64,000 nt of DNA. Origin: Chlorobium sp. GTDB taxonomy: Bacteria; Bacteroidota; Chlorobiia; Chlorobiales; Chlorobiaceae. Made by a program: the position numbers and the translations under genes. Shown piece after piece: positions 3,755 to 62,404 of the stretch; positions within the stretch are counted from its first letter, which is position 1, and each line of letters opens with the position of its first letter. The notes beneath the pieces are model-generated. The model did no database searches. It saw only the letters and a program-made list of their open reading frames with translations, and had not been told where the DNA came from. The stretch spans positions 186,001-250,000 of the forward strand of contig SZXV01000010.1 in assembly GCA_005862225.1 (NCBI GenBank), given 5' to 3'.

Positions 3755-3806
3755 CCAACTGTGTCGTCAGTTGGCCCCACCGACATACGCAGGGCGAGTA
3801 ATCGCC
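3755..3806 (+). other. Two hairpins just downstream of the candidate VR
   Basis: CCAACTG (3755-3761) pairs perfectly with CAGTTGG (3768-3774) around a 6-nt loop. GGCGA (3793-3797) pairs with TCGCC (3802-3806) around a GTAA loop of the GNRA class. Small hairpins downstream of the VR are known to promote retrohoming in the Bordetella phage DGR. There is no T tract, so these do not look like terminators. Confidence 0.45.
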
Positions 3807-3911
3807 TTGAGTGAAGCTGACGGAAAAGTACCCGCTTCAAAGCATCCGTTGATGAAAATATGTATCAACCCGAAATACATTACCCCTGAAGGCAGGAGCA
3901 AAAAGCTCACT

Positions 3912-7295: not shown

Positions 7296-10157
7296 TTAGT
7301 ATTCGCCCTCAAACTGCGGATGCACCCACAAAAATTCCTGATGTTTGTTCATGACACGGATGAGGCCGCCGAAGCCGGGATCTTTGGCTTTGAGTAGAGC
7401 GTGGAATTTGCGAAGGGTTGCGCCATCGGCGCTGATAGCGATACCATGTTCAAGCATAGTTTTGTCGGGAGTGCCGATGAATTCGCCTATTTTGGTTACT
7501 TCGCCAATGGTTGCGTCAATGGCGCTTTTGCAGAAATCAAGTTGCTCTTCGATGGCTTTGTATGTGGTGTCATCTAACCCTAATTTTATCGCGGATGAGG
7601 CTACTGGCAGAACCAGACTCAAGGTGCTTGTCATCAATTTCAGATAAGGCGCCGCTTTTTTGAACCATTCACGTTCAAGTTCGATCTCATAAACGCCTTC
7701 CTTGCCCTCTTTGCCATTCAGTGCAGGAAGCGGTAGTTGTGAGTGTTCACACCAGAGCGTTAAGCGAAATGTTGCACTTTTCCATTTGCGTGGATTGACA
7801 TTGCTAAGATCAACTGGCATAAGGCTGAAGAGACGAGGCCCCTCTTTTGCTTCATCAGTGAAAGCATGAATCAGATTGTTGAAAGAGGCATCGGCTTTGC
7901 TGAGAAGCTCTTTGTCTGTGGCATCAAGATTGTCAAAGCGCCCCATTGTTTCTTCGTTGTGCTGAATCAAAATGTTTCGAACACTATCCAGTTTTTCCAG
8001 TACCACTTTATTTGCAAGGGCATCAACTGTAATCACGGGTTGAGCAGCAGGTGCATTAAGTAACAGACTGTCTATGTTTTGCCACTCATTGCAAACAGAA
8101 CAAGGTTGTTCAGGACGTCCTCTTTTTTTGTTTTCAATGAGTTTTCGGACTTCAAACAAGCCAATACATGGCTCTGGATTCAGACAAGGAACCATAATGT
8201 CACAGCGCAAACCTTCCCAGAAACTTTCGACCAGATATTTCACCTCCTCAGTCAACATAGCGAGAAAGCGTTCGGGGTAGGGAGCATGAACAGTGATATG
8301 CACATCGTTGCCTTTGTGTTCAAGAAGGGCTCGTCCATTGTAATCGTCGTCAAGCACCAGACCGCGCTGCCAGTGGATGCTTTCGTGATAATTTACACGA
8401 CCAAGAGAGTATTTGTGCAGGCGGACAATCAATTGATAGAACAATCCTTCAGCAGAGGCGGAGTTCCCTTTCTCATCTACAATCCGGCAAATCTGAGTCT
8501 GCTGAAGCTCTCCTGCGGATGGACATGAAAGCCATTCACCAGCAAAACTATCGGGACGATTATCTGGCACAAGTTGTGCGATCAGACTCTGCGGATCTAC
8601 TTCGCCTCGCAGTGTGGGATCGGCCACACGGTAGGAAAGATCGAAGCGCCCCATCAGGCGGAGAAAGATCGCGTGAAGCGTTGCCGGGTAATGTGTTTTT
8701 TCCGGTCTGGTTGGGTTATTCCATAACTCCGTCAAACGTGAAAATTTCACCAAGCCATGTGCCTTGCGTGTTTGCTCATCGTCAAGCACGTAACTGATTG
8801 CTGTAGCAAGCCAGTCAGGTTTCAGTATGACAATGTCGCGTAGAGTAGGATCATGCTGGTAATGGGTAAAATGACCGAGCCGGTGAGAAATGGTGATGAA
8901 GAGGTTTGCAACTTCATCATTCATCTTGTGCTCATGGCAGATGTCAAGTACCTCTTTCAATGGCAAATAGGGAACCGCGCGATCTTTCAACGCTTGGCGG
9001 ACATCAGCAAAACTTTTCGGCACGGTTCTTCCCACTTCAGGCAATGTTGATGCGATACGGACAATGGCTAACTTGAGTTCATCAATCCCTCTACGCTTAT
9101 CTTGCTCATCGGGCTTGCTATCCACAAATAAGAAATCGAGAACAGTTTCTTTGCCGAAGAGATCCCAGAGTTCTTGACGGTCGATATCTGGCTGTCGTTG
9201 CTGTGGGCCACCATGTGTTGCAACAACCAAAATCTTAGCCTCCGGTTCTCGGTGCTTTATGAGTTTGATCCACTCCTTCACATAACCTTGTTGGAGTCCT
9301 TCACGTGGTTTCCATACTACAAGATAAACAGCGGGCGCACTGAAGAATAACTGGTGTGTTGAGCGGTAAACACGCTGACCACTAAAGTCCCAGCCGTTGA
9401 GGGTGATTTCGGTTTTCGTCTTAGGATTGAGAAATTGAATGGGATTAATTTCAATACCGTGTGTTGAATCATGTTCCTGCCACTCGTTGCCAAGCAGTGC
9501 ATCAACCAAACAGGTTTTGCCCACTTCGCCTTCACCAACGAGAATGAGCTTGGCTTCATTCAGGATGATGTGCGCTTCGGCTTTTGCGCGAAGATATGCT
9601 TTGACGGAATCAAGACCTTGTTTGTATGCTTCGGAAAGTTCTGGATTGAGATAGTTGCCATTGAGTTCAAGTATTTCTAAATGGTCAAGTTGCGATATAG
9701 AGGAGGGAAGATCAATACATTGGTTCTCAGTTAGATGCAGCTCTTGTAACTGTCTAAGTTCTCCGATCGACTCCGGTAGCTCCGTAAGTTGATTGTGCTC
9801 AAGATGCAGCGCATGTAACTGTGTGAGTTGCCCAATCCCTTCAGGTAGTGAAGTCAGTTGGTTGTTGTAAACACGCAACCATTTCAACTGAGTGAGTTTT
9901 CTGATCGACTCAGGCAGTATCTTTAATTGGTTGCCGTAAAGAACCAGTGACTGCAACTGCACAAGTTGTCCGATTGTCTCAGGTAGTATCGTCAGTTGGT
10001 TGTTGTATAATAATAGCCATTTCAACTGTTTGAGTTGCCCGATTGATTGTGGTAATTGAGTGAGTTCCATATCACTGAGGTCAAGTTCCCTTGTACCCGA
10101 GCATCGAGCTTTTTCGATTTCCTTTTCTGCTTTGAAATATGCTCTGTCATGCGCCAT
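7296..10157 (-). CDS. Roco protein (LRR-ROC-COR GTPase)
   Basis: A 953-residue member of the family that includes human LRRK2. Leucine-rich repeats fill residues ~22-175 in ~23-residue units of the form 'LPexIGxLxxLxxLxLxxNxL'. The ROC GTPase follows, with P-loop GEGEVGKT (208-215), switch II DFSGQ (257-261, the usual DxxG plus Gln) and THGG (314-317) in the place of N/TKxD. A COR dimerisation region runs to ~620. The C-terminal ~330 residues include a CSVC pair near 710 and are not recognised. Bacterial Roco proteins are GTPases regulated by dimerisation; their cellular role is unknown. The gene stands alone. The 210 bases downstream of its neighbour mpl (10158-10367) hold a small GGCC/GGCC hairpin near 10330 and nothing else. 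Confidence 0.9.
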   Translation of the reverse strand: MAHDRAYFKAEKEIEKARCSGTRELDLSDMELTQLPQSIGQLKQLKWLLLYNNQLTILPETIGQLVQLQSLVLYGNQLKILPESIRKLTQLKWLRVYNNQLTSLPEGIGQLTQLHALHLEHNQLTELPESIGELRQLQELHLTENQCIDLPSSISQLDHLEILELNGNYLNPELSEAYKQGLDSVKAYLRAKAEAHIILNEAKLILVGEGEVGKTCLVDALLGNEWQEHDSTHGIEINPIQFLNPKTKTEITLNGWDFSGQRVYRSTHQLFFSAPAVYLVVWKPREGLQQGYVKEWIKLIKHREPEAKILVVATHGGPQQRQPDIDRQELWDLFGKETVLDFLFVDSKPDEQDKRRGIDELKLAIVRIASTLPEVGRTVPKSFADVRQALKDRAVPYLPLKEVLDICHEHKMNDEVANLFITISHRLGHFTHYQHDPTLRDIVILKPDWLATAISYVLDDEQTRKAHGLVKFSRLTELWNNPTRPEKTHYPATLHAIFLRLMGRFDLSYRVADPTLRGEVDPQSLIAQLVPDNRPDSFAGEWLSCPSAGELQQTQICRIVDEKGNSASAEGLFYQLIVRLHKYSLGRVNYHESIHWQRGLVLDDDYNGRALLEHKGNDVHITVHAPYPERFLAMLTEEVKYLVESFWEGLRCDIMVPCLNPEPCIGLFEVRKLIENKKRGRPEQPCSVCNEWQNIDSLLLNAPAAQPVITVDALANKVVLEKLDSVRNILIQHNEETMGRFDNLDATDKELLSKADASFNNLIHAFTDEAKEGPRLFSLMPVDLSNVNPRKWKSATFRLTLWCEHSQLPLPALNGKEGKEGVYEIELEREWFKKAAPYLKLMTSTLSLVLPVASSAIKLGLDDTTYKAIEEQLDFCKSAIDATIGEVTKIGEFIGTPDKTMLEHGIAISADGATLRKFHALLKAKDPGFGGLIRVMNKHQEFLWVHPQFEGEY

Positions 10158-29044: not shown

Positions 29045-29198
29045 TGTGGGTTTTTATGTCTATGTTAGTTGCATTTATTTTTGCCGGGTGATTTGAAATA
29101 AACTCTTTTGCGTCCCTCGAATCGCCCCTCGAATACATTCCACAGCACAGGCGGCTTGTATAATACTATGAATTTAAGTATTGTGACGAATAGTTTCT

Positions 29199-29304
29199 CA
29201 TCTTGGGGGTGCTGAATCTTTTCCGACAAAAAAGCAGGGGGAAGAGGAGGCTGAGAGTAAACCCTTGTAACTTGATGCAGGTAATGCTGACGCAAGAAAA
29301 GATG
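29199..29304 (+). promoter_or_regulatory. TPP riboswitch (Thi box)
   Basis: Closing helix P1 is CATCTT (29199-29204) with AAGATG (29299-29304). The conserved core CTGAGAG (29251-29257), ACCCTTG and AACTTGATGCAGGTAATGCTGACGC (29269-29292) match the Thi-box consensus closely. The aptamer lies ~75 bases before the thiC start. No clear terminator hairpin follows, so control may be at the ribosome-binding site. Confidence 0.93.
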
Positions 29305-29370
29305 AAGCCGGCTCTGTGTTTCCCGATCGTCCCACTCTTCCCGCTTCTCCTGCATTGCCTGTCCGATTAA

Positions 29371-31014
<1,644 letters not shown>

Positions 31015-57617: not shown

Positions 57618-57810
57618 AATTGATCATTTAGTTGATACCTTCACCCCGTGAACCGTGAACTTATTCACCGAAAAAGGCTTACTGTTTTTAGGATTAAATA
57701 ATTGAAACTGAATTTATGCTTTTAGAAAGACAATAGAAAATGGTTTTCAAAAAGTCACGCCAAGAGAACATTTTCTTTACCCAATCTCAGACTTTCCTGT
57801 CCATGAACGA

Positions 57811-58173
57811 TTACTTGTTAATGTACCCCTTACAGTGAGAAGCGCCACAACTACATTCGAATGGGGCTGCTATAGTGGACTCATTGAGCGAGTAATCGAA
57901 GGTGATCTCATCACCAATATTAATATCTCTAAGCGCAATCATAAGCTCTCGCGTTTTGTCAATGTAGCACGAAGGGTCACAATGATGGTTGACATATCTG
58001 CCAAAAGGATGGTCAATGTGTCGTGTCGATAGCTCAATAGTCCTGAGATCGCGAGTTGGACTTACATCACCCATGCTGAGATCCATTACGATTTCACCTT
58101 CTTTGTAATAATTGACAGCATAGACTCCCAAGAATCCCTTGCCTTTACCCACACCAATGCCAAAAACCTTCAT
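57811..58173 (-). CDS. Minimal SET-domain protein (SET 3 of the cluster)
   Basis: A protein of 120 residues, essentially a bare SET domain. GKGKGFLGVYAVNYYKEGEIV holds the first SAM loop (residues ~10-29). VNHHCDPSCYID (61-72) replaces the usual NHSC with NHHC. DEITFDYSLNE (88-98) carries the catalytic Tyr, and CSCGASHCKGYI (107-118) is a post-SET-like zinc knuckle. It is a predicted lysine methyltransferase on a protein or peptide. It is last in the minus-strand cluster, 105 bases after the ABC gene, so it may have its own promoter. Confidence 0.85.
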   Translation of the reverse strand: MKVFGIGVGKGKGFLGVYAVNYYKEGEIVMDLSMGDVSPTRDLRTIELSTRHIDHPFGRYVNHHCDPSCYIDKTRELMIALRDINIGDEITFDYSLNESTIAAPFECSCGASHCKGYINK

Positions 58174-58278
58174 TATAACCGGGTTAGATTTTGTTAAACA
58201 TTTCTATAATATAGCTTAAAGCCATTATACGCCTTTTATCTCAGCTTCCCGCCATTGGACATGCAAAAAAACTGTCGT

Positions 58279-60039
58279 CTATACGCTTGTGCATGTCACA
58301 TCTGATTCATCAAGTTTTTCGGAGTGATTCCAAAAGCGCATATACAAACCATTATTGTTTAAGAGTTGGGCATGGGTACCCTGTTCAACGATAGATCCTT
58401 TGTCTATAACAAAAGTCATATCCGCCTCAACTGCCAAATTAAGTTTATGGGTAATTGCCACTATCGTGCATTGGCTCCGGAGTTTCAGGATGGTTTTCAG
58501 GATTTCTTGCTCGGTCAGTGGATCAAGTGCGGATGTAGCTTCGTCGAGAAGCAGCATCAGGGGTTCACGCACCAAAGCGCGTGCCAGTGCAATACGCTGG
58601 CGCTGACCACCAGACAACAGCCCGCCTGATTCGCCGCAAAGTGTTTCGTATTGCTCAGGCAGTGAAATGATGAAGTCATGTATTTCTGCCAACTTTGCAG
58701 CCTTTTCTATAGCCTCCTGATCTGCATCCAGTTGGCCCATGCGGATATTTTGTGCAATAGAGAGATTAAAAAGATTGACTTCCTGGGCAACAATGCCAAT
58801 GCAATCGCGCAGTAACCTGGGATTGAGCAGACTGCTTGCCATTTTATTTATAAGAATAACCCCTGTAGTGGGTTCATAAAAACGCAGCAGTAAATTGATG
58901 AGGGTGGTTTTGCCTGCTCCGCTTGGACCGACAAAAACCGTGAAGCTTTTTGGGTCGATTTGGAAACTGAGGTCATTCAAAACCGACTGGCCGTTGTTGT
59001 AGGAAAAACCAACATGGCGATATTCCACTGCCCCCGTAAAGCAAAACAATTCATTATCATAGTGCTGCTCTCCTGACGGAAGAGGTATCTCTAACACTTC
59101 CTGCAAACGTTGCATGGCGGCCTTTGCGGATGAAAGGTTCGGAATTATCCAGGTCATGTGGTTAATCGCGGCACTCAAGCTGACAAAAATAATCTGGTAG
59201 GAGACCAGGGAGCCAACAGACATCTTGCCCTGCATCACAAGCAACCCGGCTGCAAACAGAACAAGTATATTTAACAGCAAAAAAGCCAAATTTGGCATCC
59301 GCTGTGAGATGTAGGAAAAAAAATTAGCTCTGCTTGCAACTGACACGAATTGGTTAAGCTGTTCACGGTATTGCCCGGTGACATGGTTTTCCAATCCATA
59401 AGCACGGATCATTTTAAAGGCGCTCAGATGTTCTTGTAAAAACACTCCCAACTGCCCGTTATAACGGCACAATTCATAATTGGTACTGTTGGTTTGCCTG
59501 GCAAAGAGCCTGGGTGAAAAGAGGCACAAAACTATACCGAACAGGACGCCGGAAAATAAAAGTCGACTGAGCTGAAACAGCAGTGCTGAGGAAACCAGTA
59601 ATTCACCTATGCTGAGGAAAGCGGCAGGCAGAACGATCACAAGGGCGTTATCAACAGTCGCTGCATCCGAGGAAAACCGCGACATCAGGTCACCAGTGCT
59701 TTGCCGCTCGTGGTATTCCAGTGGCAGCAACTGCAAATGGCGGAAGAGATCATGGCAAAGATCGCTGAAAATCCTGGAACCATATTTTGCCCAATAGTAA
59801 TCACAAGTGACAGAAAAAAAGCTGTAAACCAGACCACCCAATCCAAACAGGGCGAAAAGCATCACAAAAATATCCAGCTTATTTTTCAGGATAACATCGT
59901 CAACCAGAAACTTGAGACTATAGCGCAACCCCGCCTCGTAACAAAACTCGACAGTTAATCCCAGCAGGATGAACAGGACGTACCAACGATAAGGGCGAAT
60001 GTATTGCCACAGAGCAACTGCAAACTTAAGATTACTCAT
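58279..60039 (-). CDS. ABC exporter (fused TM and ATPase)
   Basis: A half-transporter of 586 residues. Six TM helices lie in ~15-310, and the nucleotide-binding domain in ~340-575 has Walker A VGPSGAGKTTLINLLL, signature LSGGQRQRIALARAL and Walker B LMLLLDEATSALD. There is no N-terminal C39 peptidase, so it would not itself cleave a GG leader. The family covers lipid, drug and peptide exporters. Its place inside the SET/ATP-grasp cluster suggests it exports that cluster's product, which is inference. Confidence 0.92.
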   Translation of the reverse strand: MSNLKFAVALWQYIRPYRWYVLFILLGLTVEFCYEAGLRYSLKFLVDDVILKNKLDIFVMLFALFGLGGLVYSFFSVTCDYYWAKYGSRIFSDLCHDLFRHLQLLPLEYHERQSTGDLMSRFSSDAATVDNALVIVLPAAFLSIGELLVSSALLFQLSRLLFSGVLFGIVLCLFSPRLFARQTNSTNYELCRYNGQLGVFLQEHLSAFKMIRAYGLENHVTGQYREQLNQFVSVASRANFFSYISQRMPNLAFLLLNILVLFAAGLLVMQGKMSVGSLVSYQIIFVSLSAAINHMTWIIPNLSSAKAAMQRLQEVLEIPLPSGEQHYDNELFCFTGAVEYRHVGFSYNNGQSVLNDLSFQIDPKSFTVFVGPSGAGKTTLINLLLRFYEPTTGVILINKMASSLLNPRLLRDCIGIVAQEVNLFNLSIAQNIRMGQLDADQEAIEKAAKLAEIHDFIISLPEQYETLCGESGGLLSGGQRQRIALARALVREPLMLLLDEATSALDPLTEQEILKTILKLRSQCTIVAITHKLNLAVEADMTFVIDKGSIVEQGTHAQLLNNNGLYMRFWNHSEKLDESDVTCTSV

Positions 60040-60077
60040 ATCAGCCCAAGAGAAAGGATGTTATCGCGCTCACAACT

Positions 60078-61556
60078 CTATACTGATGTCAGGGAAAGTC
60101 CGGCAATCCGTGTTTTGACATAATCAGAAACATGCCCCCGGTAGCGCAACATAAAGGGAAGCATGGCATCATTGCCTGTAATGATGTGACGGCACTCAGT
60201 TTCCCCGCATGCACATTCAAATTCTTCCATCGTAGCATGGCAGAACGTGGCATAATCGATAGTGATTTGTTCTCCGGAAGCGATAAAACGACGGGCTACA
60301 AGATTCATGTTTTCAAGCCAGGCATCGGGATTACAGGAGTGGTTAATGGGCTTCCAGTCACGAGGATATTTGCTCCACATCACCCAGATTTCATCGGTGA
60401 TCGGGTAAGCATATTGACGCAACCAACGCAACTGTTGAGCATTCCAATGTTTCTCGGCATAACTCAGCGATACCAGAACATGCCCTTGCTCTTCAAAGGG
60501 CTCGATAAGCTCACCCGGCTCAATATCCCGTGTTGCGTACATACCGTAAGCACCTCGCTGGCAATATTTTATCGCCCAGCTTTTCAGGCGGCTCCGACAG
60601 CGTTTCCATGCCGCTTCCTGCAACAAGCGAATAAATTCCTCGTGACCATCAGGGTAATTGAACAGGATAAAATCAGCACTTCCCGCATCTTCAGGGCTAT
60701 AGAACACCCCGCAGTTGGGATTGATTTCCAGCATAAACAACTCTCCATCACCATTCATCCGAATATCGCATCGGCCATAGCCGGAACCATTCAAACCAGT
60801 AAACATTTGAGCAGATATGGTTCGCAGACGATTGTCAAGCTCGGGGTTGTCTACCGGAATGCAGTTCATGTCCTGGTAGTTGGACCATTTCAGATCAAAG
60901 TGCTTGAAAGATTCACCTTCCGGAAATACAAACTCAACAGCAGGGAAAACGACAGGGTTGGACGGGTCTGCGGCATTCTCTGCGACCAGTACCGTAAACT
61001 CTCTGCCTTCAACAAATTCTTCAATCAATGCCTCACCAAACTCCTTGATCATTCGGTTAGCTTCCTCGTGCAATGCCATTGGTGTTTCTACACGGGATGT
61101 ACGGGTCATGCCAATACTTGCATAACTGTTTGGATGTTTGACAATAAGGGGAAATCTTAAATTTTGAGCAGCTTCCTCAATATCCGCCTCCGTTATCACA
61201 AAGCGATGCAGCGGTGTCTCTATACCATAAGAGCGGGCGACACGTTTCATGTCTTCACGGGTCGGATCGTAAAAATCAGAAGCCGCACCAGTAAAAGGCG
61301 CATTAAAATATTCAAGTGTCTGCACCACCTCTATACCTGCACAGTCTGAATCAAATGAGCCATCGCAGAGATTGATGAACAAATCGAAACCCTGCTGGAT
61401 GAGTGTTCGTACCTGTTGAACGGCAGTAGCTTTATGAATGTCAGCCATGTCAACTTCATGATCCTTCAGATAGGGTTTTATACCCCTCAAAGGGTCATAA
61501 TCTTTTGTCGGAGAATCAGAATATTCATAGGAAGAGTAGAGTACACATATTTTCAT
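60078..61556 (-). CDS. ATP-grasp ligase fused to a SET methyltransferase domain
   Basis: About 492 residues from the ATG at 61556; a longer frame overlaps the upstream gene and is unlikely. Residues ~1-315 are a D-Ala-D-Ala-ligase-like ATP-grasp: the ATP-binding strand IVKHPNSYASIGMT (138-151), EEFVEGREFTV (179-189), and Mg-binding Asp264, Glu277 and Asn279 in CDIRMNG and LEINPN. Residues ~335-465 are SET: GMYATRDIEPGEL, NHSCNP (405-410), ITIDYAT with Tyr435, and Zn Cys448/450/455. It could ligate a carboxylate to an amine and methylate a lysine. I know of no characterised enzyme with this fusion. Confidence 0.9.
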   Translation of the reverse strand: MKICVLYSSYEYSDSPTKDYDPLRGIKPYLKDHEVDMADIHKATAVQQVRTLIQQGFDLFINLCDGSFDSDCAGIEVVQTLEYFNAPFTGAASDFYDPTREDMKRVARSYGIETPLHRFVITEADIEEAAQNLRFPLIVKHPNSYASIGMTRTSRVETPMALHEEANRMIKEFGEALIEEFVEGREFTVLVAENAADPSNPVVFPAVEFVFPEGESFKHFDLKWSNYQDMNCIPVDNPELDNRLRTISAQMFTGLNGSGYGRCDIRMNGDGELFMLEINPNCGVFYSPEDAGSADFILFNYPDGHEEFIRLLQEAAWKRCRSRLKSWAIKYCQRGAYGMYATRDIEPGELIEPFEEQGHVLVSLSYAEKHWNAQQLRWLRQYAYPITDEIWVMWSKYPRDWKPINHSCNPDAWLENMNLVARRFIASGEQITIDYATFCHATMEEFECACGETECRHIITGNDAMLPFMLRYRGHVSDYVKTRIAGLSLTSV

Positions 61557-61566
61557 AGCAGTGTTA

Positions 61567-62073
61567 TCAATTAGTGTCAGTGTTATCAACAAATCGTTGT
61601 TCCAATAGCTGCTCATGAAGTTTTTCCATGATATGTGGTGTGAATTTGTAACGAGGCAGCAAATTCCTGTTCAAATACATCGCCCCTTTAATTTCACCTA
61701 AACAGTTCGCACTTCTGCACGCACAATGAAAAACCTGCTCCATAGCCCATTCAGTCGAAGGATAAAAAAAGGTAACCTCTTCATTCGCATCGATATCACG
61801 AAGGCATATAATCTCATGACGAGTTACATCAACATAAACATTAGGGTCGCAACTGTGATTGAGATATTGAAGAAATTCTGGTTCGAGATGAATATGGCGA
61901 TGATGGTCTATTTGCAGAGAAAGATAGGTTGGGTGAGCGACATACTCTCGAACAGAAAACTTATGTAACAAAGATCCCGCTGTATGCGTGCAGGTAGCGC
62001 GCAAATGATGTTGACCAGAAACAGGATCAATATAGAGGGCAAGTTTTTCAGTAAGTTCTGATAATTTTATCAT
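61567..62073 (-). CDS. SET-domain protein (SET 1 of the cluster)
   Basis: A protein of 168 residues. It has NHSCDP (72-77), an FFYPSTEW strand with the catalytic-region Tyr104, and CACRSANC (117-124) as post-SET-like zinc site. The usual N-terminal GxG SAM loop is hard to see, so this copy is divergent (CTHTAGSLLHKF near 28-39 may replace it). It is followed after 10 bases by the ATP-grasp-SET gene and is probably co-transcribed. Three SET proteins of different divergence in one locus is unusual in bacteria. Confidence 0.85.
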   Translation of the reverse strand: MIKLSELTEKLALYIDPVSGQHHLRATCTHTAGSLLHKFSVREYVAHPTYLSLQIDHHRHIHLEPEFLQYLNHSCDPNVYVDVTRHEIICLRDIDANEEVTFFYPSTEWAMEQVFHCACRSANCLGEIKGAMYLNRNLLPRYKFTPHIMEKLHEQLLEQRFVDNTDTN

Positions 62074-62404
62074 TTATAAAAAAAATTTCATTCTTTGTTA
62101 TCAATTAATAAACGGAAAATAACAAAAAAAAGACAGTAAAGCAGAAGAAGCACTCAATCTCTCCCTATTGATGACCTCATTCAGCCGCGTACCTCGGCAA
62201 TTACAGTGACTATTACTGGAATACAAATTTCCTTGAAGCCCTTAGCGTAGCATCATAGCCTCCAGTACCAGAGTCTGTTACACAAGTGCAACTGCACAAC
62301 CGGGCATCTTCGGTAACTGTTGAATGGAAAGCATAGAAGATCTGGGATGGTTTTGTTATAATGACTGCACAAGTGTTCTGGCGGTACTGTTCATACTCAA
62401 AAAA
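62074..62404. other. Intergenic region between the SET operon and rluD
   Basis: About 330 bases holding the divergent promoters of the two operons. The minus strand has an open frame (stop at 62213) that reads a Cys-rich peptide, with LCSCTC near its middle and GTGGYD after it. Its only ATG (62410) lies inside rluD, so it is not called as a gene. Confidence 0.45.

Follow-up and report, generated by a model that had tools for sequence, protein, structure and literature searches.

The window, i.e. the whole 64,000-nt stretch of Chlorobium DNA that was analysed, carries four minus-strand ORFs between positions 57811 and 62073, and these coordinates agree with those of the first-pass annotation (Table 1). 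That annotation saw there three SET-domain proteins, one of them fused to an ATP-grasp ligase, on the same strand as an ABC exporter, a description that the ORFs and their Pfam domains bear out. The cassette is flanked on one side by bchI, bchD and bchH and on the other side by an rluD-type pseudouridine synthase gene (Pfam, NCBIfam); the homology search names Chlorobium and uncultured Chlorobiaceae as its relatives. In Chlorobium the gaps between the cassette genes are of about 9–13, 38–146 and 22–128 nt. No amino-acid biosynthesis gene lies within the cassette, and a scan with Rfam gave no RNA element there. The ORF of the fusion extends over 512 aa (60078–61616), with Dala_Dala_lig_C in its N-terminal half (8.4e-19) and SET (2.5e-10). 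Its start is nevertheless most likely the MKICV at 61556 and not 61616, because this start comes directly after the SET1 stop and is conserved in relatives.

Table 1. Coordinates of the cassette genes and of the cassette edges, as positions of the window.
Feature	Positions	Strand	Description
SET1	61567–62073	-	168 aa; heads the cassette; single-domain SET with post-SET Cys motif, BurB-like; Pfam SET 1e-8
ATP-grasp-SET fusion	60078–61556	-	492 aa; Ddl-type ATP-grasp (residues ~1–320) and SET (residues ~330–465); Pfam
ABC exporter	58279–60039	-	586 aa; TM domain and ATPase, ABCB/MsbA-like; Pfam, NCBIfam and PDB ABCB-type matches
SET3	57811–58173	-	120 aa; closes the cassette; Pfam SET 6.5e-10
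SET1 upstream region	62074–62234	-	AT-rich, without conserved ORF; presumed promoter region
lpd (dihydrolipoamide dehydrogenase-like) 5' remnant	62235–62334	-	right insertion edge; aligns with the lpd start in L151 and L154
Left cassette edge	57776–57810		match to the bchI-rluD intergenic sequence of relatives stops near 57776 (empty-site loci L123, L124, L129–L135)

Elsewhere in the window lie an LRR-Roc-COR (Roco, LRRK2-like) GTPase gene of 953 aa (7296–10157, minus strand) and a TPP riboswitch (29195–29315, plus strand) directly upstream of thiC (29380–31014). Rfam also reports a group II intron D1-D4-7 element (3755–3886, plus strand; 53.7 bits for a gathering value of 34), and by Pfam the adjacent upstream ORF does not encode a reverse transcriptase.

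All eight related Chlorobiaceae loci have the genes in the order SET1, fusion, ABC, SET3 over the extent of their contigs, of which that of L035 begins inside SET1 and that of L041 ends inside the fusion. The dN/dS ratios among the Chlorobiaceae loci are between 0.03 and 0.25 for each of the four genes, indicating purifying selection. Furthermore, the ATP-grasp and SET catalytic residues of the fusion do not vary among Chlorobium, Bacteroidota and Gemmatimonadetes. Conserved order, selection and invariant catalytic residues together argue against a chance arrangement: the four genes form a real functional unit.

The fusion is found in nine of the 86 Chlorobiaceae genomes. At the thresholds used, SET3 and the exporter are present in eight of these nine and nowhere else among the 86; the ninth (G141) is cut off within the fusion by the end of its contig. 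Wherever the contig extends far enough, a Chlorobium cassette includes the ABC gene. In one Bacteroidota family a full-length fusion is carried by 34 of 118 genomes, and SET1 by exactly the same 34, three of which have SET1 unlinked from the fusion. Taking genomes as independent draws, such a match would occur by chance with a probability of 2e-30; genomes are not independent, but the 34 carriers represent 34 genera. At the 35 Bacteroidota loci a second ATP-grasp gene adjoins the fusion or lies within a few ORFs in every case, and SET1 likewise in 32. Of the 118 genomes, 14 encode a TM-only membrane protein (PF13748); all of these are among the 34 carriers, and the gene almost always follows the fusion immediately. 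For phyla beyond Bacteroidota, genome contigs and plasmids were sampled and yielded one fusion, in a Gemmatimonadetes MAG (L042), which is 47–48% identical to that of the window. No full-length fusion was found on plasmids by tblastn, and a scan of viral contigs gave no relatives.

The SET, ATP-grasp-SET and ABC genes had been proposed to be one undescribed modification-plus-export unit, with the co-occurrence of their homologues as the test. The outcome is decisive, as co-occurrence is all-or-none, and it supports a single unit. The same enzyme core is tied to a complete ABC exporter in Chlorobium and, in some Bacteroidota, to a different, TM-only membrane protein. Thus export appears as a part of the theme, while the PF13748 protein is dispensable in Bacteroidota, where 20 of the 34 carriers are without it.

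Between bchI and rluD, close relatives have either some 60–130 nt (L123, L124, L129–L135) or an lpd gene (L151–L156). In the present strain some 100 nt from the 5' end of lpd remain beside the cassette, and no lpd ortholog is left in the genome, the best remaining match being 35% identical. The cassette has replaced lpd between bchI and rluD in this strain (57776–62334). In the other Chlorobium genomes its flanks differ. The fusions of G141 and of the window are 91–92% identical, above the 84% identity of the rluD proteins, which hints at transfer within the genus.

One MAG contig (L037:1–4948, CAIQSY010000169.1) has an exact 97-nt terminal repeat that closes it into a loop of 4,851 bp, containing the cassette, a 5' piece of lpd and a 5' piece of rluD. 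It reads as an excised circle, a tandem duplication or an assembly loop. Some Chlorobium loci share a repeat, GAGCACCGCNCAACRAWGCAATCG... (L040:9577–9600, L047:9923–9946, L038:4116–4139), located in the gap between the fusion and the ABC gene or upstream of SET1; it is absent from the window.

SET enzymes are best known for histone marking and classically methylate the N-epsilon of lysine. The three cassette SETs all have the NHxC, catalytic Tyr and post-SET Cys motifs, which are features of histone-type SET domains. For SET1 the best PDB match is BurB (9l4t, 1.5e-13 versus 4e-5 for the best histone methyltransferase), and profile comparison gives 8e-22 for BurB versus 4e-13 for histone methyltransferase. 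For SET3 there is a tie between BurB (3.1e-10) and the Set1/KMT2 histone methyltransferases (3.0e-10). BurB is a SET-domain methyltransferase of the bur cluster, in a DMSP pathway, which converts free methionine to S-methylmethionine (PMC12542666, PMC7496086). Like SET1, it is a short single-domain SET protein with a post-SET motif, and it has a role in a small-molecule pathway. The two proteins have in common the stretch LQI..H.H..P.F..L.HSC.PNV..D....LRDI..E..T..Y.STE......F.C.C...NC...I.GA.

Disparities nevertheless appear between them. In the SET tree the SET1 proteins of Chlorobium and Bacteroidota form one clade (support 98), the fusion SET domains form a second with a Leptospira protein (99), and BurB forms a third with Eleftheria and Rhizobium proteins (99). 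The NHSC asparagine is replaced by L or A in the BurB clade (LHSC in BurB) and is retained in SET1. The BurI, BurD and BurE functions (decarboxylase, transaminase and dehydrogenase) have no counterpart in the cassette. SET1 as an outright methionine S-methyltransferase was rejected, since it keeps the NHSC motif and lies outside the BurB clade in the tree. From its similarity to BurB, it is reasonable to expect that SET1 would act on small molecules.

The contexts of other BurB-like SETs are diverse. The Eleftheria gene lies in a polyketide (PKS) cluster with an aminotransferase and an aldehyde dehydrogenase. That of Tabrizicola piscis, on a plasmid (L107:1124–6128), belongs to an apparent five-gene operon with a GHMP kinase, a PLP enzyme, a DMT transporter and an alanine racemase, likely another SET small-molecule pathway. 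In Rhizobium bangladeshense, also on a plasmid (L108:4742–6654), the gene sits between asparagine-synthase-like and AdoMet decarboxylase genes and looks like an S-methylmethionine branch. The Streptomyces and Deinococcus contexts say nothing on metabolism. A fourth SET gene, distant and stand-alone, is present on the same contig as the cassette, outside the window (L001:1501–1788; G000:C11:16235–16522); the post-SET cysteines are absent in its aligned part.

PDB profiles match the fusion to D-Ala-D-Ala ligases (2e-21) and also to SET proteins. In 12 sequences the invariant ATP-grasp residues are K104, K140, E179, E186, K223, R262, D264, E277 and N279, which we take to be those binding ATP, Mg and acyl phosphate in E. 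coli DdlB. In the SET domain NHSC (405–408), Y435, C448, C450 and C455 are invariant. Against the curated Ddl families of NCBIfam the ATP-grasp domain scores far under every cut-off (81.2 bits where 243 are required, 69 where 245.65 are), and the loop after N279 (PNCGVFYSPEDAGSAD or FTCSVFYTDGFEGSAD) differs from that of Ddl, where the corresponding loop binds the second D-Ala. Because of these scores and of this loop, we read the domain as an amino-acid ligase of a specificity other than that of Ddl. AlphaFold models, built from shallow alignments, have a mean pLDDT of 43.8 for the fusion and 35.9 for SET1, too low for the models to be of use.

The substrate had been suggested to be a peptide or a small protein, and a conserved short peptide gene was looked for. 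No conserved same-strand ORF of 15–90 aa was found in the cassette gaps, in the flanks or upstream. The conserved short frames that were seen correspond to an antisense shadow of SET3, to the lpd remnant and to flanking frames common to the nearest locus. The exporter matches the TM and ATPase domains of Pfam only (ABC_membrane 2.4e-31, ABC_tran 3.1e-29), with no match to a peptidase domain. A peptidase-containing (PCAT) exporter is common, without being universal, in RiPP and graspetide systems. With these two results, and with SET1 closest to a methyltransferase of a free amino acid, the suggestion of a peptide or small-protein substrate is not supported.

We therefore favour, with a probability of about 0.52, a cassette that makes and exports a small methylated, amide-linked metabolite derived from amino acids, and that is self-contained and horizontally movable. 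The ATP-grasp domain would use ATP to phosphorylate the carboxylate of one amino acid, giving an acyl phosphate, and would join this activated amino acid to the amine of another, as D-Ala-D-Ala ligase does, though with another acceptor pocket. The methyl of SAM would be placed on a side-chain N or S by SET1, SET3 and the fused SET, before ligation (on the free building blocks) or after it (on the product), the model for this step being BurB on free methionine. The ABC protein would export the product. In Bacteroidota the same core, i.e. SET1 and the fusion, would operate with the second ATP-grasp and, in 14 of the 34 genomes, with the PF13748 membrane protein. For each enzyme class the chemistry is known from named relatives, and we infer the substrates, the order of the steps, the product and the direction of transport.

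The analysis establishes the gene content and homology of the cassette, its intact catalytic residues, the selection acting on it, its all-or-none co-occurrence and its insertion site. The metabolite is supported by this co-occurrence, in the 86 Chlorobiaceae genomes and in 34 of 118 Bacteroidota genomes to which the membrane protein is confined, by BurB as the nearest solved relative of SET1, and by the metabolic genes found beside BurB-like SETs elsewhere. The intact Ddl catalytic residues, the exporter without a peptidase domain match and the lack of a conserved short peptide ORF point in the same direction. The metabolite reading is weakened by the NHSC asparagine that SET1 keeps, by SET3, which is as near to Set1/KMT2 as to BurB, and by the uninformative contexts of some BurB-like SETs. 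The absence of amino-acid biosynthesis genes from the cassette also weighs against it, as does the presence of the membrane protein in just 14 of the 34 Bacteroidota genomes.

One competing reading is a RiPP-like or protein maturation system acting on a genome-encoded peptide or small protein: the SETs would methylate its lysines, the ATP-grasp would introduce amide or ester links into it, and it would then leave the cell through the ABC protein. SET domains are indeed mostly known as protein-lysine methyltransferases, SET3 is no closer to BurB than to KMT2, and lysine methylation by the cassette SETs is possible, as one among several options. Graspetide RiPPs are moreover built by ATP-grasp ligases (PMC8939145). 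However, the cassette ATP-grasp is of the Ddl type, SET1 is BurB-like and the exporter is without a peptidase match; the search for short ORFs, which bears on linked precursors only, was negative in gaps, flanks and upstream. We consider such a system unlikely. A modifier of cellular proteins, the ATP-grasp adding amino acids to a side chain or terminus (cf. tubulin tyrosine ligase-like proteins), the SETs methylating and the ABC protein being secondary, is also rather improbable. It finds a precedent in human TTLL12, a fusion of SET-like and ATP-grasp-like domains in the protein-modifying TTL family (PMC3520985), and the 20 of 34 Bacteroidota genomes without PF13748 make export by this protein dispensable there. 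But the ATP-grasp of TTLL12 is of another family and the protein is reported to lack activity in vitro, and no Chlorobium cassette with a contig reaching the ABC gene is without it.

A special case of the metabolite reading concerns lysine-type diamino acids: the product would be a lysine-like dipeptide with N-methylation, which might serve as an osmolyte or a signal. Lysine N-epsilon is the classical SET target, the closest non-SET relatives of the ATP-grasp (E ~1e-23 to 1e-16) are often tandem pairs, in two Pfam-checked loci beside GNAT and KamA, and a homologue on a Thioflavicoccus plasmid is beside KamA and diaminopropionate genes. These KamA-associated ATP-grasps nevertheless form a separate deep clade, so that their context is just a hint toward diamino acids; the cassette has no KamA gene, and an exporter is ill-suited to an accumulated osmolyte. 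This product is thus doubtful, and it is equally doubtful that the cassette is the methylating counterpart of the ATP-grasp pairs found beside KamA and GNAT in other Bacteroidota. The patchy distribution, the replacement of lpd and the loop-like contig could also evoke a selfish or defence island, in which a movable cassette makes a toxic metabolite or blocks phage, with the ABC protein as immunity. This we regard as very improbable: PADLOC gives generic ATPase matches of the ABC protein only and matches no complete system, the cassette offers no immunity or toxin candidate, and 20 Bacteroidota cores are without the PF13748 membrane protein.

Bacterial SET proteins are usually labelled protein-lysine methyltransferases, the best-studied ones being read as host-chromatin effectors. 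The present gene set is widespread in free-living bacteria and strictly co-inherited, and it points instead to the methylation of metabolites. From the same data we tentatively propose, at somewhat less than even odds, a natural-product pathway of a new class, conserved from green sulfur bacteria to Bacteroidota, where short non-ribosomal peptides are assembled and methylated jointly by SET enzymes and a SET-fused ATP-grasp. If this is true, BurB would be just one member of a much larger family of bacterial SETs that methylate metabolites. SET1 and the fusion make up a small expressible unit, open to direct substrate screening, and the SET-ATP-grasp fusion is distinctive enough to guide mining for what may be a new class of compounds.

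Compared with known systems, the cassette combines partial likenesses. With D-Ala-D-Ala ligase the fusion shares the fold family and the catalytic Lys/Glu/Arg/Asp/Asn set, and differs from it by the joined SET domain, the scores below the curated cut-offs and the second-substrate loop. The partners of BurB are a decarboxylase, a transaminase, a dehydrogenase and an NRPS-PKS, those of the cassette SETs an ATP-grasp and an ABC exporter. TTLL12 is the only described protein found in which SET-like and ATP-grasp-like domains are joined; in contrast to the cassette fusion it is eukaryotic, has the reverse domain order and a TTL-type ATP-grasp, is not part of an operon and is reported to show no catalysis in vitro (PMC3520985). 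Graspetides also rely on an ATP-grasp ligase for bond formation, of the microviridin MdnB/MdnC type and not of the Ddl type, and on a precursor peptide, which was not found in or around the cassette (PMC8939145). The tandem ATP-grasp, GNAT and KamA loci of Bacteroidota (L111, L113–L119), possibly a beta-lysine dipeptide system, hold the nearest ATP-grasp relatives outside the SET system and are alike in their tandem pairs, but have no adjoining SET and fall in a separate deep clade; their GNAT and KamA-type lysine aminomutase neighbours were checked by Pfam in L116 and L117, and in several further loci ORFs of similar size and arrangement stand in their place. The same architecture is not described in the searched literature, which included ATP-grasp surveys checked for SET. 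The enzyme classes are known, and what is undescribed in this literature is their combination: an ATP-grasp amino-acid-ligase system using SET methyltransferases.
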